A model generated the notes under the pieces. It ran no database searches. It was not told where the DNA came from and saw nothing but the letters and a program-made list of their open reading frames with translations. From Halorubrum rubrum (GTDB lineage Archaea; Halobacteriota; Halobacteria; Halobacteriales; Haloferacaceae), in assembly GCF_024494685.1 (NCBI RefSeq), contig NZ_JANHDM010000002.1:248001-312000 (forward strand): 64,000 bases of DNA, read 5' to 3'. Position numbers and translations under genes: made by a program. Positions 1 through 17,519 of this stretch are shown here, piece after piece (within the stretch, counting starts at the first letter, position 1; every line of letters starts with the position of its first letter).

Positions 1-1
1 G

Positions 2-553
2 GTCACGCCGGATCTCATGGCGCTCGGGAAGGGGCTCTCAGCCGGCTACGCGCCGATAAGCGCGACGATGGTCGCCGACCACGTCGTCGAGACGCTCGAG
101 GCGAACGACCACGCCTTCCAACACGGTCACACCTACAGCGGGAACCCGATCTCGACGGCGGTGGCCGACCGCGTGCTCGATCGCTACACTGAGGACCTGT
201 TCGCGGCGGCTCGACGGCGCGGGCGGCGGCTCGAGGAGACCCTGGAGCCGCTCGTCGAGAGCCCGATCGTCGGCGAGATCCGACGGGTGGGGCTCCAGGT
301 CGGCGTCGAGTTCGTCGCCGACCGGGAGACGAAGACGCCGTTCGATCCGGACGCCGATATCGCCGACCGGATCTACGACGCCGCGCTCGAGGACGGCGTG
401 TACACGTATCCCGGCGGCGGCAGCGTCGACGGACGGGCCGGCGATCACCTCATGCTCGCGCCGCCGCTCACGGTCGACGACGCGGACGTCACGACGATGG
501 GCGAGACCGTCGTCTCGGCCGTGAACCGCGTCGCCGGCGAGGAGGGATACTAA
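2..553 (+). CDS. Class III PLP aminotransferase, C-terminal part (5' truncated by window edge)
   Basis: The reading frame is open from base 2, so this is the last 183 codons of a gene that begins outside the window. The visible part starts at the segment LMALGKGLSAGYAPI, where the lysine after LG is the expected Schiff-base residue for pyridoxal phosphate in fold-type I class III (ornithine/acetylornithine/GABA-type) aminotransferases. The segment HTYSGNPISTAVA and the later VGLQVGVEFV fit the same family. The substrate cannot be told from this fragment. The internal ATG at base 17 is not a plausible start because the catalytic segment runs across it. It ends 63 bases before the convergent sufD gene. 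Confidence 0.85.
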   Translation, partial: VTPDLMALGKGLSAGYAPISATMVADHVVETLEANDHAFQHGHTYSGNPISTAVADRVLDRYTEDLFAAARRRGRRLEETLEPLVESPIVGEIRRVGLQVGVEFVADRETKTPFDPDADIADRIYDAALEDGVYTYPGGGSVDGRAGDHLMLAPPLTVDDADVTTMGETVVSAVNRVAGEEGY

Positions 554-616
554 CGGCGTTCTCGGAGGCGGTCGCGAAAAATCGAATCTCCGTGCGTCTT
601 CCCCGCGAGCGACCCG

Positions 617-1834
617 CTACTGGAGCCGTTCGACGACGAGTTCCTCGACGTCCTCGCGGAACTCGTCGACCGCGATCTCCTCTAAGACGGGCACGAAGAA
701 GCCCTCGACGAGCATGTTTCGCGCCGTGAGCGAGTCGATGGAGCGACTCTCCAGGTAGAACAGGTCCTCGGCGTCGACCTGCCCCACGGTCGCGGAGTGT
801 GACGCCTCCGTGTCGTGGTTGTGGATGATCAGCTTCGGCGACGCGTCCGCCTCGGCGTCGTCCGACAGCATCAGCGTGTTCTCGCGCTGGTAGCTCGAGG
901 TGTTCCACGCGTCACGGCCGACGTCCTGGACGCCCTCGTACACCGAGCGCGCCACGTCGTCGAGCACGCCGCGCGTGACGAGGTCGGCCGTGGTGTGTTC
1001 GGCCTGGTGCCAGACGCGGGCGTTGACGTCGAAGTGCTGGTCCTCGCTGCCGAAGAACGTCCCGACGATCTGGCTCTCGGAGCCGTCGCCGTTCAGTTCG
1101 GTCTCGACGTCGGAGCGGGTGAGCTTCGAGCCGAAGTTGCTCTCGATCCAGTCGATCGTGGCGTACGTGTCCGTGATCCCGCGTTTCAGCGAGTAGGTGT
1201 AGGTGTCGTCGTCGAGGTTCTGGAGCGAGCCAAACTGGACGGCCGCGTTCTCGCCGCCGACGACCTCGACGAGGTTCGAGAAGTACCGGTCTCCCTCGAT
1301 CTCGCTCTCCTCACCCGACTCGATCGACTCGAGGATCGTCACCGACGACGACTCCTCGGCGACTACGAGCGTCTGGCTGAACAGCGAGCGGGAGTTCATC
1401 TCCGCGCGGATCTTCACGTCCTCGACGTCGACGCCCTCGGGGACGTAGACGAACGTGCCGGTCGTAAAGAGCGCCACCGACAGCGCCGTGAGGTAGTTGT
1501 GCTCGGGGTCGAGCACGGTGCCGAAGTGCTCCTCGAGGGTGTCGCCGTACTCGTCGAACGCCTCGGTGAACGGCGCGACGACGACCTCGTCGTCGCCGGC
1601 GGTCCGCTCCGTCGCGTCCGACTGGTTCAGCGGGTCGACGAGCGCCTCGAAGTCCAGCGCCTCGAGGTCCGTCCAGCGCCGGCCGGGCGTCTGGATGACG
1701 TCGGGTAGCTCCGCAGTCTCCAGCGCCGAAAGCGCGTTCAGACGGGTCTCGAGGAGCCACTCGGGCTCGTCGCGTTCCTCCGCAATGTGTCGTACCGTGT
1801 CCTCCGAGAGGCTCTCGATTGCTTTCGTGCTCAT
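617..1834 (-). CDS. sufD: Fe-S cluster assembly protein SufD
   Basis: Scaffold subunit of the SufBCD iron-sulfur cluster assembly complex in the cytoplasm. The 405-residue product has the SufB/SufD beta-helix core (roughly residues 110-375), with family segments such as FVYVPEGVDVEDVKI and a C-terminal LFYLESRSIDSLTARNMLVEGF. That C-terminal segment closely parallels SufB next door, so the two are ancient paralogues. The N-terminus (IAEERDEPEWLLETRLNAL) also matches the SufB start. The gap to sufB is one base, so the two are surely cotranscribed in the order sufC-sufB-sufD. SufD is less conserved than SufB and is identified partly by this context. Confidence 0.95.
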   Translation of the reverse strand: MSTKAIESLSEDTVRHIAEERDEPEWLLETRLNALSALETAELPDVIQTPGRRWTDLEALDFEALVDPLNQSDATERTAGDDEVVVAPFTEAFDEYGDTLEEHFGTVLDPEHNYLTALSVALFTTGTFVYVPEGVDVEDVKIRAEMNSRSLFSQTLVVAEESSSVTILESIESGEESEIEGDRYFSNLVEVVGGENAAVQFGSLQNLDDDTYTYSLKRGITDTYATIDWIESNFGSKLTRSDVETELNGDGSESQIVGTFFGSEDQHFDVNARVWHQAEHTTADLVTRGVLDDVARSVYEGVQDVGRDAWNTSSYQRENTLMLSDDAEADASPKLIIHNHDTEASHSATVGQVDAEDLFYLESRSIDSLTARNMLVEGFFVPVLEEIAVDEFREDVEELVVERLQ

Positions 1835-1835
1835 G

Positions 1836-3263
1836 TTATCCGAGCGAACCCTCCATCTCCAGTTCGACGAGCCGGTTCAGCTCGACGGCGTACTCGATCG
1901 GCAGCTCCTCCGTGATCGGCTCGATGAACCCCGAGACGATCATCTGTTTCGCGTCGTCGTCGTCGAGACCGCGCGACTGGAGGTAGAAGATGTCCTCGTC
2001 GCCGATCTTCCCGACGGTCGCCTCGTGAGCGACGTCGACCTTCGACTCGTTGATCTCCATGTACGGCATCGTGTCGGAGGTCGACTCGTTGTCGAACATC
2101 AGCGCGTCGCACTCCACGGCGGTCGAGGAGTCAGAAGCGCCGTCGGCGATGTGGACGAGGCCGCGGTAGTTGGTGCGGCCGCCGTCCTTCGAGATCGACT
2201 TCGACTCGATCGTCGATTTGGTCTCGGGCGCGTTGTGGTACACCTTCGCGCCGGTGTCGATGTCCTGGCCCTCGCCCGCGAAGGCGATGGTGATGTGGTT
2301 GTCGCTCGCGCCGCGACCCTTCAGGATCGTCGAGGGGTACAGCATCGTCGCCTTCGACCCCATCGACCCCGAGATCCACTCCATTCGCCCGCCCTTCTCG
2401 GCGATCGCGCGCTTGGTGTTCAGGTTGTACGTGTTCTTCGACCAGTTCTGGACGGTCGAGTACTGGACGTGGGCGTCCTCGCCGACGAACACCTCGACGC
2501 CGCCGGAGTGGAGGTTGAACGCGGAGTACTTGGGCGCCGAACAGCCCTCGATGTAGTGGACCTCCGAGCCCTCCTCGGCGATGATGAGCGTGTGCTCGAA
2601 CTGGCCCATCCCCTCGGAGTTCATCCGGAAGTACGCCTGGATCGGCATCTCGACCGTGGTGTCCTCGGGGACGTAGACGAACGAGCCGCCCGACCAGATC
2701 GCGCCGTGAAGCGCCGCGAACTTGTTGTCGCTCGGCGGGACGGCCTTCGTCATGAAGTACTCCTTGACGAGCTCTTCGTGCTCCTGGACCGCCTTGTCCA
2801 TGTCACAGAAGACGACGCCCTTCTCCTCCCAGCGCTCCTGCATGTTCTGGTAGACGATCTCCGACTCGTACTGTGCGCCGACGCCGGAGAGCGCGTTCTT
2901 TTCTGCCTCCGGGATGCCCAGCTTGTCGAAGGTGTCCTTGATCTCCTCGGGGAGGTCAGTCCAGTCGTCGACGCCGCCGCGGACGTCGATGTCGGGACGG
3001 ATGTACGGGACGATCTGGTCGATGTCGACCTCCGAGAGGTCCGGCGCTTCGGGCCAGTCGGTCGGCATCGGCATCGCCTCGAACTGCTCGAGGGCGCGCA
3101 GGCGGCGCTCCAGCATCCACTCCGGTTCGTCCTTGTCCTCCGAGATGACGCGGATCGTCTCCTCGGTGAGGCCCTTCTCGCTTTTGAAGGCGGACTTCTC
3201 CTCCTTCTTGAACTCGAAGCGGGCCTCGGTGTCGGTCTCTTTGAGGTGGTCTTGTGAACTCAT
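1836..3263 (-). CDS. sufB: Fe-S cluster assembly protein SufB
   Basis: Main scaffold of the SufBC2D complex, on which Fe-S clusters are built. The product is 475 residues, the usual size. An N-terminal helical part (DEPEWMLERRLRALEQF) is followed by the beta-helix core from about residue 190. Recognisable segments include GGSFVYVPEDTTVEMPIQAYFRM (partly shared with SufD), YIEGCSAPKYSAFNLHSGGV and GDEDIFYLQSRGLDDDDAKQM. The start at 3263 is supported by a TATA-like CTATAC on the coding strand 24-29 bases upstream. The gene can therefore be transcribed independently of sufC as well as with it. Confidence 0.97.
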   Translation of the reverse strand: MSSQDHLKETDTEARFEFKKEEKSAFKSEKGLTEETIRVISEDKDEPEWMLERRLRALEQFEAMPMPTDWPEAPDLSEVDIDQIVPYIRPDIDVRGGVDDWTDLPEEIKDTFDKLGIPEAEKNALSGVGAQYESEIVYQNMQERWEEKGVVFCDMDKAVQEHEELVKEYFMTKAVPPSDNKFAALHGAIWSGGSFVYVPEDTTVEMPIQAYFRMNSEGMGQFEHTLIIAEEGSEVHYIEGCSAPKYSAFNLHSGGVEVFVGEDAHVQYSTVQNWSKNTYNLNTKRAIAEKGGRMEWISGSMGSKATMLYPSTILKGRGASDNHITIAFAGEGQDIDTGAKVYHNAPETKSTIESKSISKDGGRTNYRGLVHIADGASDSSTAVECDALMFDNESTSDTMPYMEINESKVDVAHEATVGKIGDEDIFYLQSRGLDDDDAKQMIVSGFIEPITEELPIEYAVELNRLVELEMEGSLG

Positions 3264-3285
3264 GTCAGTTGTTTACGTCTCTGGT

Positions 3286-3293
3286 TGTATAGC
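3286..3293 (-). promoter_or_regulatory. TATA-like box for sufB
   Basis: The coding (minus) strand reads GCTATACAA about 24-31 bases before the sufB ATG, the spacing expected for a leaderless haloarchaeal transcript. It lies in the 52-base gap between sufC and sufB. It suggests that sufB-sufD has its own promoter besides readthrough from sufC. This is called by motif and spacing only. Confidence 0.5.
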
Positions 3294-3315
3294 GTTGTTG
3301 TGTAACCACGGTTAG

Positions 3316-4230
3316 TTACGCCGTCCCGTAGGCGTCCTCGCGGACCCAGTCGTACCCCTCGTCCTCGAGCTTCTCCGCGAGCTCCGGGCCGCCGCTCTTC
3401 GCGACCTCGCCGTCTAACATTACGTGGACGTGGTCGGGCTCGACGTAGTCGAGGATGCGCTGGTAGTGGGTGATCTGGAGGATGCCGGTTCCCTGCTCGT
3501 CGCGGAGCGCGTTGATCCCCTTCGAGACGTCCTGGAGGCGGTCGATGTCGAGCCCGGAGTCGATCTCGTCGAGCACGGCGATCGCTGGCTCCAACATCGC
3601 TGCCTGGAGCACCTCGTTCTGCTTCTTCTCGCCGCCGGAGAAGCCGGCGTTGAGGTACCGCTGCATGAACTTCTCGTCCATGTCGAGCAGCTCCATCTTC
3701 TCCGAGAGGATCTCCTGGAACTCGGCGACGCCGATCTCGCCGTCGTCGGCGGGGCCCTCCATCGGGGAGGTGTCGTAGCCCTCGTCGTCGGCGTCCGCCT
3801 CCTCGGCGTCCTCGCCCTCGAACAGCTCCTCGCGCTCGTCGGCCTTCGCGTTGAGCGCCTGCCGGAGGAAGTTCGTCATCGTGACGCCCTCGATCTCCGC
3901 GGGGTACTGGAACCCGAGGAAGATCCCGAGCGCGGCTCGCTCGTTGGGCTCGAGTTCGAGCAGCTCCCAGTGGTAGTCATCGTCGTCGAGGTCGGCGTCA
4001 ACGTCCGCCAGGTCGGCCTCGTCGAGATGGAGCGCCACGCTCCCGTCCGTTACCTCGTAGGCTGGATGTCCGGCGATGACCTTCGCCAGCGTCGACTTGC
4101 CCGAGCCGTTCGGACCCATCAACGCGTGGATCTCGCCGGACTCGACCTCGAGGTCGACGCCTCGAAGGATCCGTTCACCGCCCTCTTCTGCCACCCGCAC
4201 GCGTAGGTCGCTGATCTCGAGAGTTGCCAT
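3316..4230 (-). CDS. sufC: Fe-S cluster assembly ATPase SufC
   Basis: ABC-type ATPase that powers SufBCD. Walker [10 protein letters not shown] is at residues 39-47. The ABC signature in [11 protein letters not shown] is near residue 200 and is followed by the Walker B segment [13 protein letters not shown], all typical of SufC. The product is 304 residues, longer than the roughly 250 usual in bacteria. The extra length is an acidic low-complexity insert between about residues 130 and 160 ([17 protein letters not shown]), a halophilic expansion just before the [12 protein letters not shown] segment. It is the first gene of the suf cluster. Confidence 0.96.
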
Positions 4231-4351
4231 ATGTAGGGTTCTGCCTCGTACGTGTATCGTGGGGGTTGCGGAGGTTAATAGTTACGGATACCCCGTCGAA
4301 AATCACGAATTAGAGAATAATTCTTTCGAGAACTGAAATCATGGTTCGTAA
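4231..4351 (-). terminator. polB-sufC intergenic region with likely polB terminator and sufC promoter
   Basis: This 121-base gap is markedly AT-richer than its surroundings. Read in the leftward direction it contains T-rich stretches after the polB stop (around 4300-4340, including AGAATTATTCT, a short imperfect dyad), which fit an archaeal T-rich terminator. Nearer sufC, around 4255-4290, there are TATA-like candidates (ATTAAC, GATACAC). The exact promoter element cannot be chosen from sequence alone. Confidence 0.4.
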
Positions 4352-7300
4352 TCACATGAACGAACCGAGGCCGGTCTGTTCTTGGCCGGTCTTGACCTCC
4401 TCCCAGGAGGTGCCGAGCGCCTCGATGATCCGCTCGATGGGTCCTTTCAGCGTCTTCTCGAGCATCTTCTCCCAGTCCACCTCGAACTCCTCGGGGATCT
4501 GGTCCGCGTACTCGAAACAGATCACGTCCGGGTCGCGTTTGAACTCGCCGTAGAGCCCGTTGCGTTGGGGATCGAGCCCCACCTCGGACTCCATCCGCTC
4601 CCAGAAGTCCGGATGGACCTTCTCCAAGTAGAGCCGCTTGGGCTTCGAGCCCCTCCCGAAGTTCGTCCCCAGCAGCTCGTTGGCGTACTGCGCGCCCCGG
4701 ACCTGCGCGGTCGGCGTCTCGTAGGCGTCGAGCCGCTTGCCGATCCCGCCGGGGATCCCGACCTCCTCGACGTCGACGTTCCCCGCGAGGAAGTCGTCGA
4801 TGACCCCCGAGAGGTACGTCGTGATCGCCGCGAGGTCCTCGTCGATGTCGTCGCCGGTGACGATGGTCTCGATGACATGCTGTTGGACCTCCTTCGTAAT
4901 CTGTGCGATGTCCGACCGCTTGTACTCGAAGCCCGTGATGTCGATGTCGTCGACGTCTTTCCCCTCCTTCCAGACGATGTGGCCCGCGTACCGCTTCTTC
5001 TTGCCCGCCTGGAAGAAGCGCCGGTAGAGCTTCTCGAACTCGATCTCGAAGCGGTGAAACTCGGCGTTCAACTCCTCGCGCGCGAAGTCGTCGTAGCGGT
5101 CGTTGATGTGATCCGCTATCTCGAAGGAGGTCGCGATCGCCTTTTCTTTCGATAAATCTCCGAGAGAAAGCATAACTGAATCGGTGTCCCCGTATGTAAC
5201 CTTCCTATCAAGCTCTTCGGTCACGCCGGCGGTGAAGTCGATCACCTCGCGGTTGGTCGAGGTGACGCCCGCGCTCATCTCGCGGTCGTACAGGCGGAAC
5301 CGGTCCCACCCGAAAACGCCGTACAACGAGTTCATCAGAACTTTGACAGCTCCCTGCTGCCGGTCGTACTGTTCGTACGCCTCGGTCCCCGGCTCGTGCT
5401 CGTTCCGGAGCGCCTTCTTCTCCTCGCGCTCGTCGAGGAGTTCGTTCACCATCTCCCGGATGATGCCGTCCGGCTCCTTCCGGAAGTGGACGCCCGTCGG
5501 GGTCCGGTAGGTGTCGCCGTCGTACGCCTCGGGGTCGACCTTCGTCTCCGGCGACGCGTTGATCGTCACCATGGACATGGGGTAGAGGCTCTTCAGGTCC
5601 AGCACGCTCACCATCTCGCGGACTCCGGAGATCGGGTCGAACACCGCGCCGCCCTCGAACTCCTCGGCCTCCTGTTGGCCCTTCGAGGGCAGCGCGAAGT
5701 TCCCGAACGCCATGTGGAGCACGTACATGTCGACCGCGTCCCCCGGCGTCGTCGCGTCCTCGAGCTTACAGCCGACGATCTTCCGGGCGTCGTCCCAGAA
5801 GGCGATCACGTCCTGTGCGCGGTCGATCTCGACGCACAGCTCCACGTCGCGGATGCTGTACTCGAGCAGGCGCTCCGGGTCCTGCTCCCAGAGGTCGCCG
5901 ATGTCGCCGGCGTACCGCTCCTTGCCGACGCCGAGCTCGCGCTCTCCCACCGCGTCGAGCCGGTACGACTCCAGCTCCGTGAACATCGTGCGCTTGTAGG
6001 CGTACAGGAGGTCGAAGACGACGCGGCCCTTGACGTCGGGGCCGCCCCAGCCGGAGCGCCACACCTCGCCGATGCGGGAGAATCGATCCACCGAGAGATC
6101 GTACTCGCTTCCCGGATCGAGCTCTTCCATCCGGTCGAAGAAGTACGGGACGTCGAAGTCCTCGCAGTTGTGAACGAGACAATCATCTGCGAAGAAATTG
6201 TGCGTGGTGGTCTCGATGTCGTAGGTCGTCTCCGTGCCGACACGCTCCACATCCTCAACCTTCACAAACACGTACTCCGACCACTCGTCGAGAGTCGTTT
6301 CGTGCCGTTTGAGGTTGATTCCTCGGCGGCGTTTGTCCCGGCCGATCCGCTTTTCATCCGTACCAGTGTCCGCCTCAAAGAGCGCGTACGGGATGTTCTC
6401 GCTCCGTCCGCTTTCTCCGCCGTCTAGCGCTTTCAGCGCCTCTCGCTTTTTTGAGTGAGAGAGATGCGGGAGGACCCGATCCCTGAGTCGCTGGATCTCA
6501 CGCTCTGCGTCCGGGACCCGAACCACGTTTTCCCGCTGTTCTGCGTAGATGCCAAGCCGGCGGAATAGCTTCACGTACCATTCTCCGATGGATCGGTTTT
6601 CGGCCGCAACGGTCACCGAAGACGAGACGTTCCCGTCCCCGTCGATGACTCCCGCCAAGAACCGTTCTATATGCGATTCTGGAAGTTCGAAAATCGTCGA
6701 GAGATCGACTTCCACCTCGTTTTTATCACCGAACGGAATCCCGAGCCCGTTGAACGCGTACATTCGGGCGTAATCCAGTACGTTCTGCTTGTAGCATCCC
6801 TTTCCATCGGGTTGAAGATGGGTCTCACCAGGGAACTGTCCGTGTAACTCCTCACGCGTGTTGTAGAAACGGACTCCGTCCTCGGGCGACATCGTTCCAT
6901 CCGTGAGAACGAGTCCTGCGAGATACAGCTCGTGGTCGGTGAGTTCCCTGTCGAGGTCGTTCCGCGTGCGGCGGTACTCCTTCCCGCCGTCAGGGAGCGC
7001 AACGTCGTACCGGTCAGACGCAACCTGACAGCGCTCCGGCGTCCAGACATCTGTCTTCGGGTGATGTAAGGTTCCCGCGGCGAGATCGAACTCCTCTGCG
7101 AGCTCAGAAACGGCGCCGTAAGGAAGTTCAGATTTGAACGATTTGATCGCTTCTTTACTACCGAACCGCTGGCATTCGATCGGGACGAGGTCACTGAGGG
7201 TCGGGACACGCTCCGAGTCGACGTTCAATTTTCGCGGCTTGAGGAGATAGTCCCCGACGTCGATCTCGCTTCCCTCCTTCCAGTCGACTTGATCGTCGTC

Positions 7301-8476
7301 ACCGACCATCACACGATGGTCCTCCGAACTGCGGAGATCAGTTCCGTCCGCGAGCCTGTATCTGAGAATATCCTTCTCGCTTTCCCACTTGTTCGTGACC
7401 TCCGCGGTCGTCGTCTGCTGTTCGTCGCTCCCGATCACCTCGTCTCCGACGGACACGTCTTCGATCCGTTGCTCGGTCCCGTCCGCTTTGAGAATCTGAC
7501 TATCCGCCGGTAGACAGTTCCACCCTGTAAAGAGATCCGGGTCCGTCTCGTCGATGTAGTCCACGAACGCGTCGAGCATCGCGGCCTCCTCCTCGAAGAC
7601 ACGGACCTCGAAATCGAGCTCCCCGTCCTCGACGATCCCCTCGTAGTCGGGGAGTTCCGACGGCGGCGGCACCTCCGCGTCGGGCGCGTCGTACAGCCAG
7701 ACGACGTACTCGTCGTCGTAGGAGTCGTGGCTGGTGAGGCAGATGATCGGTTCCTCGCCGTCCTCGGGGAAGCCGCGGCGGTCGTCGACCTCGATGTCGA
7801 AGGTGTTCACCCGCATCTCGGCGTCGACGTCGGCGGGTTCCAGCATCCCCTCGTGGACCTGGATCGTCCCCTCCCCGTCGTCGAGGCGGCGCTCCTCGAC
7901 GCGCAGGCCGCCGTTGAGCCCGTTGTCGATCAGAAAGCGGTTCGGAAAGAGGATGTCCGCCTCGAAGGTGGTCTCGAAGTCGTCCCGGATGTTCCCAACG
8001 TCACGCGGGGTCCGCGTGACGATCCGGGTGAGCGGCTCGCCGCGGATGCTCTCGTAGGGCTCGCCCTCGGCGTTCTCCTCGCGGGTGCCGATGACCACGT
8101 CGTACGCCTCGGCGGGGTCGCGATCGAGCTCCGCGGTCGGGACGTAGAAGTACGGCTCGACGCCGAGGACGCGGAGGTGTTCGACGTCGTCGTCGCCGTC
8201 GGGGTTCGGCCGGCGGCCGAACACGTGGACGACGGGGTACTCGTCGCTGCCGTACCCCTCGACCGCGTAGTCGATCTGGGTGATCATCAGCTCGACGGTG
8301 CCCGTCGATTCCGGGAACTTCGCCTCGTCGACGTCGACGACATCGCTGACGCGTCCGTGTCCGCCGCCCGCGACGACCCTCGCCTCCTCGGCGGCGAGGT
8401 CGTCGCGGGCGCCGCCGTCGCCGTCGGCGTCCGCACCGGCGGGCGACGAGAAGTCCGTGAGCCCCGACTGAGTCAT
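4352..8476 (-). CDS. polB: Replicative family B DNA polymerase PolB, intein-containing
   Basis: DNA-dependent DNA polymerase with 3'-5' proofreading. The precursor is 1374 residues and the mature extein is about 924. Exo I is at residues 226-230 (FDIEV). Exo II (GWN-CEDFDVPYF) is interrupted by a 450-residue intein. After the intein come motif A (DLKSLYPMSM), motif B (KVLMNSLYGVFGW) and motif C (YGDTDSVML). The last eight residues, QTGLGSFM, resemble a PCNA-interacting (PIP) box. I chose the ATG at 8476, not a longer frame reaching 9064, for two reasons: a TATA-like CTTTTAG lies 23-29 bases upstream, and the extension overlaps other genes and has no polymerase similarity. The gene precedes sufC on the same strand. 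Confidence 0.97.
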   Translation of the reverse strand: MTQSGLTDFSSPAGADADGDGGARDDLAAEEARVVAGGGHGRVSDVVDVDEAKFPESTGTVELMITQIDYAVEGYGSDEYPVVHVFGRRPNPDGDDDVEHLRVLGVEPYFYVPTAELDRDPAEAYDVVIGTREENAEGEPYESIRGEPLTRIVTRTPRDVGNIRDDFETTFEADILFPNRFLIDNGLNGGLRVEERRLDDGEGTIQVHEGMLEPADVDAEMRVNTFDIEVDDRRGFPEDGEEPIICLTSHDSYDDEYVVWLYDAPDAEVPPPSELPDYEGIVEDGELDFEVRVFEEEAAMLDAFVDYIDETDPDLFTGWNCLPADSQILKADGTEQRIEDVSVGDEVIGSDEQQTTTAEVTNKWESEKDILRYRLADGTDLRSSEDHRVMVGDDDQVDWKEGSEIDVGDYLLKPRKLNVDSERVPTLSDLVPIECQRFGSKEAIKSFKSELPYGAVSELAEEFDLAAGTLHHPKTDVWTPERCQVASDRYDVALPDGGKEYRRTRNDLDRELTDHELYLAGLVLTDGTMSPEDGVRFYNTREELHGQFPGETHLQPDGKGCYKQNVLDYARMYAFNGLGIPFGDKNEVEVDLSTIFELPESHIERFLAGVIDGDGNVSSSVTVAAENRSIGEWYVKLFRRLGIYAEQRENVVRVPDAEREIQRLRDRVLPHLSHSKKREALKALDGGESGRSENIPYALFEADTGTDEKRIGRDKRRRGINLKRHETTLDEWSEYVFVKVEDVERVGTETTYDIETTTHNFFADDCLVHNCEDFDVPYFFDRMEELDPGSEYDLSVDRFSRIGEVWRSGWGGPDVKGRVVFDLLYAYKRTMFTELESYRLDAVGERELGVGKERYAGDIGDLWEQDPERLLEYSIRDVELCVEIDRAQDVIAFWDDARKIVGCKLEDATTPGDAVDMYVLHMAFGNFALPSKGQQEAEEFEGGAVFDPISGVREMVSVLDLKSLYPMSMVTINASPETKVDPEAYDGDTYRTPTGVHFRKEPDGIIREMVNELLDEREEKKALRNEHEPGTEAYEQYDRQQGAVKVLMNSLYGVFGWDRFRLYDREMSAGVTSTNREVIDFTAGVTEELDRKVTYGDTDSVMLSLGDLSKEKAIATSFEIADHINDRYDDFAREELNAEFHRFEIEFEKLYRRFFQAGKKKRYAGHIVWKEGKDVDDIDITGFEYKRSDIAQITKEVQQHVIETIVTGDDIDEDLAAITTYLSGVIDDFLAGNVDVEEVGIPGGIGKRLDAYETPTAQVRGAQYANELLGTNFGRGSKPKRLYLEKVHPDFWERMESEVGLDPQRNGLYGEFKRDPDVICFEYADQIPEEFEVDWEKMLEKTLKGPIERIIEALGTSWEEVKTGQEQTGLGSFM
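6167..7516 (-). other. Intein with LAGLIDADG homing endonuclease inside PolB
   Basis: Residues 321-770 of the PolB precursor. It begins with Cys321 (CLPADSQILKADG), has the block B-like segment SSEDHRVMV, and ends FFADDCLVHN, with the terminal His-Asn followed by Cys771 as +1 nucleophile. Two dodecapeptide endonuclease motifs are present, LAGLVLTDG (519-527) and LAGVIDGDG (607-615). It is therefore a full-size bifunctional intein, not a mini-intein. Removing it restores the Exo II motif GWNCEDFDVPYF. The DNA here is visibly less GC-rich than the extein DNA, as expected for a horizontally mobile element. Confidence 0.95.
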
Positions 8477-8498
8477 ACGCTCCGTTCGCCGTACCCGG

Positions 8499-8505
8499 CT
8501 AAAAG
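8499..8505 (-). promoter_or_regulatory. TATA-like box for polB
   Basis: The coding strand reads CTTTTAG 23-29 bases before the ATG at 8476, which fixes the start of polB and implies a leaderless message. Confidence 0.5.
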
Positions 8506-8651
8506 ACCGGCGTTCGTTCCCGGACCCGTCCCTCGGCTCACGGCGTCCCGACGGCCCCGGTCGAGTCCGCCACGCTCGGACGGCGGCGACCCGACCGGTG
8601 ACACTCACCCCCACGGAAAAGCCTATATCGTGTACTGACTTACCACGGTCC

Positions 8652-8825
8652 ATGCCCTCGAACCCGCTTCGGGACGACGGGACGCACCGTTCGGGCGACC
8701 ACGACGCGGTCGACGCCGACGTGGAGGTGTACGAGGACGACGGCAACGTGGTGCTCTTCGAGGCGGAGAACCCGCTCGCGTGGGTCGAGGCCAGCCGAAC
8801 GGTCCGGCTCGCGGACGCGGCCTGA
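8652..8825 (+). CDS. Small haloarchaeal protein, DUF7331-like
   Basis: A 57-residue acidic protein whose second half (YEDDGNVVLFEAENPLAWVE) matches a family of 50-60-residue haloarchaeal proteins that I recall as DUF7331. Its function is unknown. The start is set by a TATA-like CTATAT at 8623-8628, 24-29 bases before the ATG. Its position between polB and the DUF7322-like and DUF7346-like genes beside rad50 appears to be a conserved haloarchaeal neighbourhood (from memory). There is no signal peptide or membrane segment. Confidence 0.75.
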   Translation: MPSNPLRDDGTHRSGDHDAVDADVEVYEDDGNVVLFEAENPLAWVEASRTVRLADAA

Positions 8826-8906
8826 ATCGCGTTTCGACGCGTCCGACCCGTTCCTCCGCGACCGCCGGACACAACCCCTTTGACCCGCCGCGCCGTACCG
8901 GCGAAC

Positions 8907-9389
8907 GTGTTCCCCTTCGACGAGGACGACGAGGGCGAGGTCTCCTTCGGGGAGAGCTCCGACGCCGAGCGCGAGATGACGCCGGAGATCCCGAAGGCCC
9001 CCTCGGTCAAGTCGTTCGACGACGACGGGGACTTCTCGGCCGCCGGCGACGTCGACGGCGGCACCCTCCGCGCGTTCGTCGTCGCCGTGATCTACGCGAA
9101 CGTCGCGGTCCTCCTCGCGAGCCTCGGGCCGATGGTCTGGTTCTTCGAGGGATGGATCCGGATCGGCATCGTCCTGACCGTCGCGGGGATCCTCGCCGGG
9201 ATCCGCACGTATCAGACGTACCGGTCGTGGGATCGGTCGCGGGGGGACGACGGGGGCGAGGAGGCGGCCGCCGCCGAAACTGAACGCCCCGCTGACGGCG
9301 ATGCCGCCGGCGACGATGCCGCTGACGCGGGCGTGGACGCGACCGTGACCGACGACGCCGACGCGGACCGCTCCGCCCCGGAACCGTAA
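8907..9389 (+). CDS. Two-TM haloarchaeal membrane protein (DUF7322-like)
   Basis: About 160 residues. An acidic N-terminal cytoplasmic-like segment is followed by two hydrophobic helices (about residues 56-80, LRAFVVAVIYANVAVLLASL, and 85-108, WIRIGIVLTVAGILAGI). The C-terminal tail is highly acidic and Ala/Asp-rich. I prefer the GTG at 8907 to a TTG at 8880 because the residues between are basic and unlike the rest. The family assignment is from memory and the function is unknown. Confidence 0.65.
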   Translation: MFPFDEDDEGEVSFGESSDAEREMTPEIPKAPSVKSFDDDGDFSAAGDVDGGTLRAFVVAVIYANVAVLLASLGPMVWFFEGWIRIGIVLTVAGILAGIRTYQTYRSWDRSRGDDGGEEAAAAETERPADGDAAGDDAADAGVDATVTDDADADRSAPEP

Positions 9390-9416
9390 TCCGTCCCGCT
9401 CTCCTACCTCGGTCCG

Positions 9417-9863
9417 ATGCGAACGGTCCGAGACGCGGACGGCGACACGTATCTCCTCGTGAAGCGGTCCGACGAGTCCAGCCGGATCCGCGACCCGGAG
9501 ACGGGCGCGGAGCGGTACGTCGAGAACGCGACCCTCGAGACGGTCGAGGGGGAGTCACCGCTCGCGACCGCGGCGAGGGGGGTTCCGGAGCCCGTCCGCC
9601 GGACGATCCGGGCGGTCCCCGACGACCGGGCGCTCGGGCTGCTCATCGAGCTCGTCGATCGCGGACCGCTGTCGGTCCGCGAGGTCACGGACGCCTACGA
9701 CATGTGCGAGTCCGACCTCCACGGCCGGCTCGCCGGGTTCCGCGTCGCCGAACTGATCGAGGAGGCCGACGTCGGCGGCCGCCGGGGATACGCCGCGACG
9801 CCGGTCGCCGAGGCGGCGGTTCGACTGTTACGCGGGGACGCCGAGAAAACGGACGAGTCGTAG
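9417..9863 (+). CDS. Winged-helix protein next to rad50 (DUF7346-like)
   Basis: A 148-residue protein. The first part (RTVRDADGDTYLLVKRSDESS) resembles a small beta domain that reads like a record of modifiable residues. The C-terminal part (about residues 68-138) has winged-helix features: ALGLLIELVDRGPLSVREVT, then a probable recognition helix and wing (LIEEADVGGRRGYAATPVAEAA). It is convergent with rad50 across a repeat-bearing gap. I recall a haloarchaeal family of this type beside mre11-rad50, but no function is established from sequence. Confidence 0.65.
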   Translation: MRTVRDADGDTYLLVKRSDESSRIRDPETGAERYVENATLETVEGESPLATAARGVPEPVRRTIRAVPDDRALGLLIELVDRGPLSVREVTDAYDMCESDLHGRLAGFRVAELIEEADVGGRRGYAATPVAEAAVRLLRGDAEKTDES

Positions 9864-9890
9864 GGATCGACCGCCGACCGCGCCGCGACC

Positions 9891-9990
9891 GCACCTCACG
9901 CCTCCCCAGCCTCGGTCTTGGCGGCCCGCCGGAGCCGCCGGCGGGCCGCCTCGCCCTCCCTCGCGCGAGCCGTTCGCGGCCACCGGCCGC
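9891..9990 (+). repeat. Dispersed hairpin repeat, copy A
   Basis: The core GCACCTCACGCCTCCCCAGC starts at 9891. It is followed by a hairpin with perfect 13-bp arms (9920-9932 and 9938-9950) around a 5-base loop, then by GC-rich sequence. The core recurs on the opposite strand at 47837-47862 and, slightly diverged, at 52711-52734, each followed by a different hairpin. It lies between convergent genes (the winged-helix gene and rad50), where it could also act as a bidirectional terminator. Confidence 0.75.
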
Positions 9991-10043
9991 TCACGGGCGC
10001 GCGCCACCGCGGACGCGTCGGTCGTCTCGGTCGCCTCTCCGCC

Positions 10044-14712: not shown

Positions 14713-14852
14713 GCGTGGTCGTCAGTATCTCATGCTGCTAGATAATATTTACTATCCTATTTTATTACCTAGAGACATGTGTTTCGCGGCGGGACGGACC
14801 TCGAGTGCCACCACCCGAAGCCTCTTATCCGCGAGACGCTTTATTACGGCCA
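14713..14852. promoter_or_regulatory. AT-rich divergent promoter region between the MarR-type gene and pan
   Basis: This is one of the most AT-rich stretches in the window (ATAATATTTACTATCCTATT around 14742-14761). A TATA-like CTCTTATC at 14822-14829 lies 24-31 bases before the pan ATG. For the leftward gene, TATA-like AAATATTA lies upstream of its ATG at 14712. The symmetric AT-rich centre could hold a regulator site. Confidence 0.5.
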
Positions 14853-16070
14853 ATGAGTGACACCGTCGACGACGTCGACATGCCCTACGACGAGGGGTCG
14901 GCGTCGAGACAGGAGAAGATCGAGACCCTCCAGGATCGGCTGGAGGTCCTCGAGACGCAGAACGAGGAGATGCGCGACAAGCTCCTCGACGCCAACGCCG
15001 AGAACAACAAGTACCAACAGAAGCTCGAACGGCTCACCCACGAGAACAAGAAGCTCAAGCAGTCGCCGCTGTTCGTGGCCACCGTCCAGGAGCTCACGGA
15101 GGACGGCGCGGTCATCAAACAGCACGGCAACAACCAGGAGGCGCTGACGGAGATAACCGACGAGATGCGCGAGGAGATCGGCCCCGACGACCGGGTCGCG
15201 GTCAACAACTCGCTTTCCGTCGTCAAGAAACTCGAGAAGGAGACGGATGTTCGCGCCCGCGTCATGCAGGTCGAACACTCTCCGGACGTCACCTACAACG
15301 ACATCGGCGGGCTCGAAGACCAGATGCAGGAGGTCCGCGAGACGGTCGAGATGCCGCTCGAACGCCCCGAGATGTTCACGGACGTCGGGATCCAGCCGCC
15401 GAGCGGCGTCCTGCTGTACGGCCCGCCGGGGACGGGCAAGACGATGCTCGCGAAGGCCGTAGCCAACGAGACGGACGCCACCTTCATCAAGATGGCCGGC
15501 TCCGAACTCGTCCACAAGTTCATCGGCGAGGGCGCGAAGCTCGTCCGCGACCTCTTCGAGGTCGCCCGCGAGAACCAGCCCGCGGTCCTCTTCATCGACG
15601 AGATCGACGCGATCGCCTCGAAGCGGACGGACTCGAAGACGAGCGGCGACGCCGAGGTCCAGCGGACGATGATGCAGCTGCTCTCGGAGATGGACGGCTT
15701 CGACGAGCGCGGCGAGGTGCGGATCATCGCCGCCACGAACCGCTTCGACATGCTCGACCCCGCCATCCTCCGGCCCGGCCGCTTCGACCGTCTCATCGAG
15801 GTGCCCAAACCCGACACCGCGGGCCGGGAGATCATCTTCCGGATCCACACCCGCAAGATGAACCTCGCCGACGGCATCGACTTCACCGAACTCGCCGGCA
15901 TGGTCGAGGACGCCTCCGGCGCGGACATCAAGGCGATCTGTACCGAGGCCGGGATGTTCGCGATCCGCGACGACCGGACGCAGGTCACCCTCGACGACTT
16001 CCTCGAGGCCTACGAGAAGCTCCAGGCGACCGACGAGAGCGACGCCGACGACTCGCTCGCGTTCGCGTAG
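14853..16070 (+). CDS. pan: Proteasome-activating nucleotidase PAN
   Basis: Hexameric AAA+ ATPase that unfolds substrates for the archaeal 20S proteasome. The N-terminal coiled coil covers about residues 20-75 (LQDRLEVLETQNEEMRDKLL) and is followed by an OB domain. Then come Walker A GPPGTGKT (about 190-197), Walker B LFIDEIDAIA, and the second region of homology with AATNRFDMLDPAILRPGRFD. The chain is 405 residues. It ends LAFA, so the canonical HbYX docking motif has Phe in place of Tyr. The start at 14853 was preferred over an in-frame upstream codon because of the TATA spacing and family length. Confidence 0.97.
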   Translation: MSDTVDDVDMPYDEGSASRQEKIETLQDRLEVLETQNEEMRDKLLDANAENNKYQQKLERLTHENKKLKQSPLFVATVQELTEDGAVIKQHGNNQEALTEITDEMREEIGPDDRVAVNNSLSVVKKLEKETDVRARVMQVEHSPDVTYNDIGGLEDQMQEVRETVEMPLERPEMFTDVGIQPPSGVLLYGPPGTGKTMLAKAVANETDATFIKMAGSELVHKFIGEGAKLVRDLFEVARENQPAVLFIDEIDAIASKRTDSKTSGDAEVQRTMMQLLSEMDGFDERGEVRIIAATNRFDMLDPAILRPGRFDRLIEVPKPDTAGREIIFRIHTRKMNLADGIDFTELAGMVEDASGADIKAICTEAGMFAIRDDRTQVTLDDFLEAYEKLQATDESDADDSLAFA

Positions 16071-16144: not shown

Positions 16145-16282
16145 GTGACGACCGCAGAGTTCTCGTGTCCGGGCTGTAACCAGACCATCGAGGTGAACGA
16201 CGAGATGCGCGAGACCATCCTCGAGGTCGGCTGTCCGGTGTGTACGACCGCCGTGAGCACCGACGACTTCGCCGAAGCGTAG
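16145..16282 (+). CDS. Mini zinc ribbon protein 1 (DUF7560-like)
   Basis: A 45-residue protein with two CxxC knuckles, CPGC and CPVC, about 23 residues apart, which should bind one zinc ion. It starts at GTG 16145; a TATA box (TTTATAT, 16102-16108) lies 37 bases upstream. It is clearly paralogous to the 50-residue product at 17660-17812: both share the pattern EV-x-D-x-MRE-x2-LE-x-GC-x-VC between and around the cysteines. The function is unknown; such ribbons often mediate protein or nucleic-acid contacts. Confidence 0.8.
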   Translation: MTTAEFSCPGCNQTIEVNDEMRETILEVGCPVCTTAVSTDDFAEA

Positions 16283-16386: not shown

Positions 16387-16998
16387 ATGAACGACTCTCC
16401 CGGCGCTTCTCGCTCCGCCGATCCCGTACGGCGTCACCCCCACCACACGTTCAAGCCGGGGACGGTGTCGACCGGGACGTTCCAGCGCTACGTCTTCGAC
16501 GTCTGCGACTCCGCGGCCGACTGGGGGATCGAACACGTCCTGCTCGTCAACGGCCGCTACCTCGTCCAGGATCCCGAACTGGAGGTCGTCGTCCGCCGAC
16601 TCCGCACCGAGAGCGACCTCGAGGCGTTTCACGTCCCGCTCGTGGAGCCGTTCGCGGACGTCGCCGAGGAAATACGGACCGGCGAGGTCTCGTTTCACGC
16701 CTCGGAGTTCGAGACGAGCATCATGCTGGAGCTGTTCCCCGAACTCGTCGACATGGACGCCGCGACCGCGGTCGACCCGTCCGCGGGGTCGCTCCCGCTC
16801 ACCAACGACGACGCGCTCGGCGAGAACCGGGTGGGATGGGCGTTCACCGCCGACGAGATGGCGTCGATCACCCCCGCGGGCAACGTCGGCGACCCGACGG
16901 TCGCAACGGCCGAGACGGGGGCGGCGCTCGTCGACGCGGCGGTCTCGGACGTGGTGACGCTGATCGAGGAGCTGGAGCGTCGGCGACGCGAGGAGTGA
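16387..16998 (+). CDS. Degenerate creatininase-family protein lacking the metal site
   Basis: The 203-residue product resembles the C-terminal two-thirds of creatinine amidohydrolase-type proteins: a PGTVS-like strand, then HVLLVNGRYLV, then HASEFETSIMLELFPELVD. The family's N-terminal metal ligands (Glu and His of an E-x-H segment, plus Asp) are missing altogether. The motif NGHYEN or NGHGGN appears here as NGRYLV, so the metal-binding His and Glu are also gone. No in-frame N-terminal remnant exists upstream. It is either a decaying gene or a pseudoenzyme with a new role. Reading-frame integrity argues for some selection. Confidence 0.7.
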   Translation: MNDSPGASRSADPVRRHPHHTFKPGTVSTGTFQRYVFDVCDSAADWGIEHVLLVNGRYLVQDPELEVVVRRLRTESDLEAFHVPLVEPFADVAEEIRTGEVSFHASEFETSIMLELFPELVDMDAATAVDPSAGSLPLTNDDALGENRVGWAFTADEMASITPAGNVGDPTVATAETGAALVDAAVSDVVTLIEELERRRREE

Positions 16999-17066: not shown

Positions 17067-17519
17067 CTACTCGTCGCGCTCGACCGTGATCGTCCGGCCG
17101 GTCAGCCGGTCGGGAGCGAGCCGGTAGAGCTGGATGTCGAGGTCGGGCTTGCCGTCGGCCCAGATCTCGAAGAGCGGCCGGCGGGTCTCGCCGTACTGGG
17201 CGATCGTCTCGGGGGTGAGCGTCGCGGGGTCGACCCGCTCGAGCGTCCCGACGGCGACGACGCTGGTGTAGCGCCCGCCGTCCTCCTCGTACACCACGAT
17301 TCGGGCGTCGGGATCGGACCCGAGGAACTCGCGTTTCTCGCTGTCGACGGTGGAAACGAGCCGCAGGAACGTCTCACGTGAGTCCTCGTCGTAGCCGTAG
17401 GAGATCGGGATCGCGTACGGGGCGTCGTCGCGGGCGAGCGAGAGCACGCCGGTCTCGTGGCGGGCGAGGAACGCGTCTATCGCGGACGCGGACATCTCGG
17501 CCTCGCGCTTCGTCGTCAT
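17067..17519 (-). CDS. Pyridoxamine 5'-phosphate oxidase (PPOX)-family flavoprotein
   Basis: A 150-residue protein with a split-barrel flavin-binding fold. The N-terminal helix AIDAFLARHETGVLSLARDD leads to the strands PYAIPISYGYDEDS, and the middle and end contain YTSVVAVGTLERVD. Similar small PPOX proteins bind FMN, heme or F420, and the substrate here is unknown. A TATA-like GTTTATCC lies about 27-33 bases before the ATG at 17519. It converges with the creatininase-like gene. Confidence 0.85.
   Translation of the reverse strand: MTTKREAEMSASAIDAFLARHETGVLSLARDDAPYAIPISYGYDEDSRETFLRLVSTVDSEKREFLGSDPDARIVVYEEDGGRYTSVVAVGTLERVDPATLTPETIAQYGETRRPLFEIWADGKPDLDIQLYRLAPDRLTGRTITVERDE

Follow-up and report, generated by a model that had tools for sequence, protein, structure and literature searches.

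A creatininase-family reading frame in the window (the whole 64,000-nucleotide stretch of Halorubrum rubrum DNA analysed here) is open over 203 codons and lacks metal-ligand motifs of its family, which raises the question of whether it is a gene in decay or a shortened protein put to a new use. The initial annotation proposed both. We conclude that an accessory gene of this Halorubrum-type haloarchaeon, for a creatininase-family metal hydrolase, has very probably become a pseudogene through recent inactivation, and that the product of what remains is expected to have no function. The features to which the text refers are as follows.

14805..16070, + strand: upstream gene, intact and syntenic, for what we take to be a PAN-like AAA ATPase (the true start may be further in)
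16145..16282, + strand: upstream gene, intact and syntenic, for a small protein with two CxxC pairs, presumably zinc-ribbon-like
16387..16998, + strand: creatininase-family remnant ORF, 203 codons versus 265 in the three nearest relatives
16397..16398, + strand: junction at which 179 bp of the three nearest relatives are absent (DNA alignment; placement ambiguous by a few bases)
16402..16437, + strand: some 12 codons (residues 6-17, GASRSADPVRRH) of former coding sequence, now out of frame (alignment)
16437..16441, + strand: C run with one base fewer than in the three nearest relatives, where the old frame is restored (alignment)
16461..16462, + strand: 6-bp in-frame deletion, PGTVTVSTETF in the relatives and PGTVSTGTF here (alignment)
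16555..16557, + strand: NGH to NGR, replacing the conserved metal-ligand His (alignment with orthologues)
16696..16719, + strand: HASEFETS motif, unchanged (sequence comparison)
17067..17519, − strand: downstream gene, intact and syntenic, for a protein that we assume to be pyridoxamine-phosphate-oxidase-like

The remnant and its intact orthologues

The ORF runs from an ATG at 16387 to a stop at 16996-16998, has 69% GC and matches the creatininase profile PF02633 with an E value of 2.5e-29 (102.8 bits; Pfam cut-off 31.3). The match is confined to profile positions 68-238 of 238 instead of spanning the full length, and because it starts only at position 68 the N-terminal third is truly missing, as had been proposed. 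With the creatinine amidohydrolase family the ORF shares this part of the profile and the HASEFETS motif, whose retention was also correctly noted, but it is without the N-terminal third and the NGH histidine, and is a remnant rather than a working member. Three other PF02633 genes in the same genome are paralogues with NGHGGN or NAHGGN; the remnant is the single copy of its orthologue group.

Within the genus, an orthologue (E ≤ 1e-70) is present in 10 of 52 genomes, window included, and more distant family members are present in all 52. Across the family, 20 of 170 genomes carry an orthologue at E ≤ 1e-40, window included, and all 19 others were read and are intact. The named genome collection gave 13 loci, ten of them close orthologues. 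Altogether 30 reading frames were read, 25 of them distinct (the repeats are L052 = L007, L053 = L008, L055 = L009, L056 = L044 and L059 = L046), which leaves 24 distinct orthologues besides the window copy. A search motif collected 25 of the 27 loci, while L060 and L061, which do not carry it, were read separately.

All 24 are full length, with 259-302 codons, EQHGxHxPLGVD and NGHYL[AV]Q; the motif of the intact haloarchaeal group reads EQHGxHxPLGVD ... NGHYL[AV]QDPE (L052:4782-5576 and L061:4779-5576 included). The remnant lacks the first of these, the N-terminal ligand segment E-x-H...D, and has NGR where every one of the 24 has NGH. Its relation to the haloarchaeal proteins (Halorubrum cibi L052, H. 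aquaticum L053, Halorussus marinus L054 and others) is direct orthology; these differ from it in their complete ligand motifs, their greater length and their milder replacements. The nearest three, G001, G005 (H. aquaticum) and G007 (H. cibi), have 265 codons, lie at the same locus and are 90-92% identical to the remnant in the shared part, G001 being the closest. Neither the truncation nor the His-to-Arg change occurs in any of the 24 distinct other orthologues, so the dead form is not conserved across lineages, and the search for orthologues of this form came out on the side of decay.

The initial annotation read NGRYLV (codons 55-60, with Arg at codon 57) as a damaged motif in a protein stripped of every metal ligand. 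The His-to-Arg lesion is real, but intact orthologues read NGHYLAQ or NGHYLVQ at this site; LV is therefore a normal clade variant and His-to-Arg the sole lesion there. The loss of ligands also holds in part: the NGH histidine and the N-terminal segment are gone, but the position of Glu122 in Pseudomonas putida creatininase is, by alignment, already Leu in the intact haloarchaeal group. We take the ligand set of that enzyme to be Glu34, His36, Asp45, His120 and Glu122; it was not found in the literature searched on metal ligands. By sequence (E 4e-25 to 2e-24) as well as by fold (best Foldseek E 6.8e-12, TM about 0.6), the closest solved structures to the intact H. cibi protein include those that we take to be of the P. 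putida enzyme (PDB 1j2t and 3a6k); its best matches by fold are creatininases. For L052 and L061, the two members scanned, the NCBIfam equivalogs (creatininase, MftE, IolN) all fall below cut-off. An ArfB-like role for the intact group was weighed because a formamidase is reported to have been formerly annotated as creatinine amidohydrolase (PMC9478397) and a Haloferax arfB candidate appears in another paper (PMC8305020). This role was rejected, as the NCBIfam ArfB model is absent at E 0.001 for L052 and L061.

Lesions and openness of the frame

Lesions were read by aligning the DNA of the window copy to that of its three nearest orthologues, which occupy the same locus. Three deletions (179, 1 and 6 bp) and the His-to-Arg change, all absent from G001, G005 and G007, are disabling lesions of the kind expected of a pseudogene. 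The largest falls after the eleventh base of the ORF, and the absent stretch carries the EQHGHHLPLGVD ligand segment. In the relatives this stretch has CCCGG or a close variant near each end, which makes slippage between short repeats a plausible origin of the deletion. The 1-bp deletion lies 40 bases (~13 codons) beyond the junction, and the out-of-frame codons sit between the two. The start of the gene is thus missing, as had been claimed, but this is not a clean in-frame truncation, as a short piece of old coding DNA is now read out of frame. The deletions total 186 bp or 62 codons, which is the difference between 265 and 203.

The initial annotation pointed to the 203 codons kept open. They are open, but this is uninformative and no evidence of maintenance, because the other frames are also nearly free of stops at this GC. 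Read from 16387, frame 1 has no stop between its first codon and 16955 and frame 2 is stop-free until at least 17100, so that all three forward frames at the locus are without a stop for more than 560 nt. Only about 2% (1.9-2.6%) of single-base changes in the gene create a stop. The scarcity of stop codons at 69% GC explains why the ORF has stayed open, and decay would leave an open frame as well. The case is cautionary: at ~69% GC a 200-codon open frame says almost nothing about maintenance, and automatic annotation might enter the remnant as a genuine creatininase.

Selection and predicted structure

The codon alignment comprised 23 sequences and 179 codons (L056, L059, L060 and L061 left out), with 10 of the 23 used in the likelihood tests. 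Over these shared codons, 10 clear amino-acid replacements and 12 synonymous changes fall on the window lineage. Each replacement was scored on a profile built from the other orthologues with the near clade excluded, and random nonsynonymous mutations served as the comparison; the window mean is −5.32, against a neutral −5.22 (SD 0.72). Ten control tips were scored likewise, their own clade and the window being excluded from the profile. One has no replacement and the other nine average +1.02 to −3.62; six of these nine are significantly milder than neutral (P < 0.05), and the remaining three, which carry one or two replacements apiece, are not (P 0.06, 0.07 and 0.14). The comparison for control L006 is incompletely polarised, as one replacement probably belongs to the L007/L008 line. 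Replacements in the remaining part of the window gene have accumulated regardless of conservation, like random mutations. Together with the intact close relatives at the same locus and the absence of either lesion from the 24 other orthologues, this upholds the proposal of a recently truncated gene.

Site counting gives an omega of 0.28-0.35 for the window branch. Ten replacements among 22 changes exceed the expectation at an omega of 0.08 (P 0.001-0.004) and of 0.12 (P 0.013-0.038) and fall below that of full neutrality (P 0.003-0.013), with a neutral fraction of the branch of 0.19-0.32. Likelihood estimates for foreground versus background are 0.081 versus 0.052 (F3x4), about 0.25 versus 0.19 (equal frequencies) and 0.079 versus 0.044 (F61). 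The window branch is not significantly faster than background under the three codon-frequency models (p 0.34, 0.54 and 0.23), nor than the nearest branches under the two models used for that comparison (p 0.08 and 0.13), and a Fisher test of its replacement and synonymous counts against the three nearest is likewise not significant (p 0.15). All three codon models reject an omega of 1 for the full branch (p 9e-7, 0.002 and 7e-6). The dN/dS near one that had been named as the mark of simple decay is therefore not seen over the branch as a whole, which fits recent loss but also weak residual constraint.

The likelihood branch omega depends strongly on codon-bias modelling (foreground 0.08 to 0.26). 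Alone, these tests show no relaxation; they do not separate the window from background and were set aside as a decay signal, conservation scoring being more telling. Combined, the selection data match recent loss. The counting of changed invariant columns was also set aside, since it fails to tell the window gene apart from intact ones: of the 69 columns in which the other 22 aligned sequences all agree, 2 differ in the window copy, and several intact members have no fewer changes (L048, 3 of 72). One of the two, Tyr to Asp, is His in L060, an orthologue outside the aligned set.

AlphaFold2 models were obtained from shallow alignments (10-11 rows), so that absolute pLDDT values are modest. The intact H. 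cibi protein (10-orthologue alignment) has a mean pLDDT of 70.4 and strands at 29-36, 72-74, 112-117 and 141-146; the window protein, likewise from a shallow alignment (11 rows), has a mean of 48.6 and no strands. The absent stretch spans helix 17-26, strand 29-36 and helix 48-63 of the intact model. These predictions suggest that the creatininase fold is lost in the remnant.

Alternative readings and history of the locus

An alternative that we consider very improbable is a pseudoenzyme: a truncated, metal-free protein that is still produced and has been retained in a new role, perhaps partnering or regulating the remaining creatininase-family paralogues. The rejection of an omega of 1 over the whole branch is in its favour, as is the HGGEFETS motif, resembling HASEFETS, in one of the three PF02633 paralogues of the same genome. 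The ORF is open, but this is expected anyway. The two deletions that break the frame add up to a multiple of three; restoration of the frame by a second deletion is a 1 in 3 event without selection. Against such a role, the form is absent from all 24 distinct other orthologues, the replacements are blind to conservation, and with two helices and a strand missing the remnant is not predicted to fold. Recruitment as a scaffold or regulator, the second proposal of the initial annotation, thus finds no positive support. That a compensating deletion kept the remnant in frame for a new metal-free role, such as binding or tuning one paralogue, is most unlikely.

It is very improbable that an assembly or sequencing error hides a whole gene, or that a miscalled C run has produced the 1-bp difference and the ORF is really out of frame. 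The host genome is a draft (3.2 Mb, 25 contigs), and the 1-bp difference does fall within a run of C. A mistake in that run alone would, however, only reinforce the reading as a pseudogene, and there are four kinds of lesion (179 bp, 1 bp, 6 bp and substitutions), with replacements elsewhere in the gene that also look unconstrained. Moreover, 24 of 31 G001 frames match the window in one piece. The other seven are paralogous hits (two), the polymerase insert described below (one), non-coding or shadow frames at 8.6-9.2 kb (two) and shadow frames at the creatininase locus (two, not counted as genes); with all seven accounted for, no neighbouring gene is evidently frameshifted and the window is not generally error-prone. 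A complete metal site in a close relative, which had been put forward as a sign of assembly error, was indeed found; given lesions of several kinds and neighbouring genes that look clean, however, it points to real gene decay and not to assembly error alone.

A shortened protein with a weak form of the old role is scarcely tenable: the branch omega of about 0.3 by counting is below 1, but this is explained by constraint preceding the loss, and with the Glu, His and Asp ligand positions deleted and the remaining His ligand now Arg, creatininase-type hydrolysis is not expected.

The surroundings accord with a recent pseudogene. In the three nearest relatives the orthologue is placed as in the window, downstream of the genes for the PAN-like ATPase and the small zinc-ribbon protein. 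In both of the gene-less genomes examined at this locus, G033 and G012, the site is empty: their zinc-ribbon and oxidase-like genes are about 40 and 230 bp apart, and no creatininase sequence is detectable between them. In an unrooted tree built from 1.15 kb of the neighbouring genes, the window groups with G001 (96.1% identity, support 88) and is separate from G005 with G007 (98) and G033 with G012 (92). In this group the creatininase-family gene is accessory, being intact in three genomes, a remnant in one and absent in two. This distribution could reflect either acquisition by some members of the group or loss from G033 and G012. Intact, remnant and empty forms of one locus across related genomes make this a small case of loss in progress.

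The pseudogene would have arisen from an intact gene at this locus, as retained in the three close relatives. The 179-bp stretch with three ligand positions would have been deleted between short similar repeats, and function would have ended with this deletion or with an earlier lesion. A 1-bp deletion about 13 codons further on returns the old frame, six more bases are missing, and replacements, NGH to NGR among them, have accumulated irrespective of conservation. The rest of the gene has probably been drifting over about the final fifth to third of the branch. Such a course would amount to the ordinary recent loss of an accessory enzyme gene.

Two further differences from G001 lie elsewhere in the window. 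The ORF at 4352-9064 (− strand, 1570 aa), presumably a family-B DNA polymerase, carries an in-frame insert of ~1347 bp at about 6170-7516 that is missing from the G001 copy and has intein-like ends (a Cys start, and a His-Asn end before Cys). In alignment with G001, positions 1-10000 are inverted relative to 10038-37058, which places a rearrangement near 10 kb.
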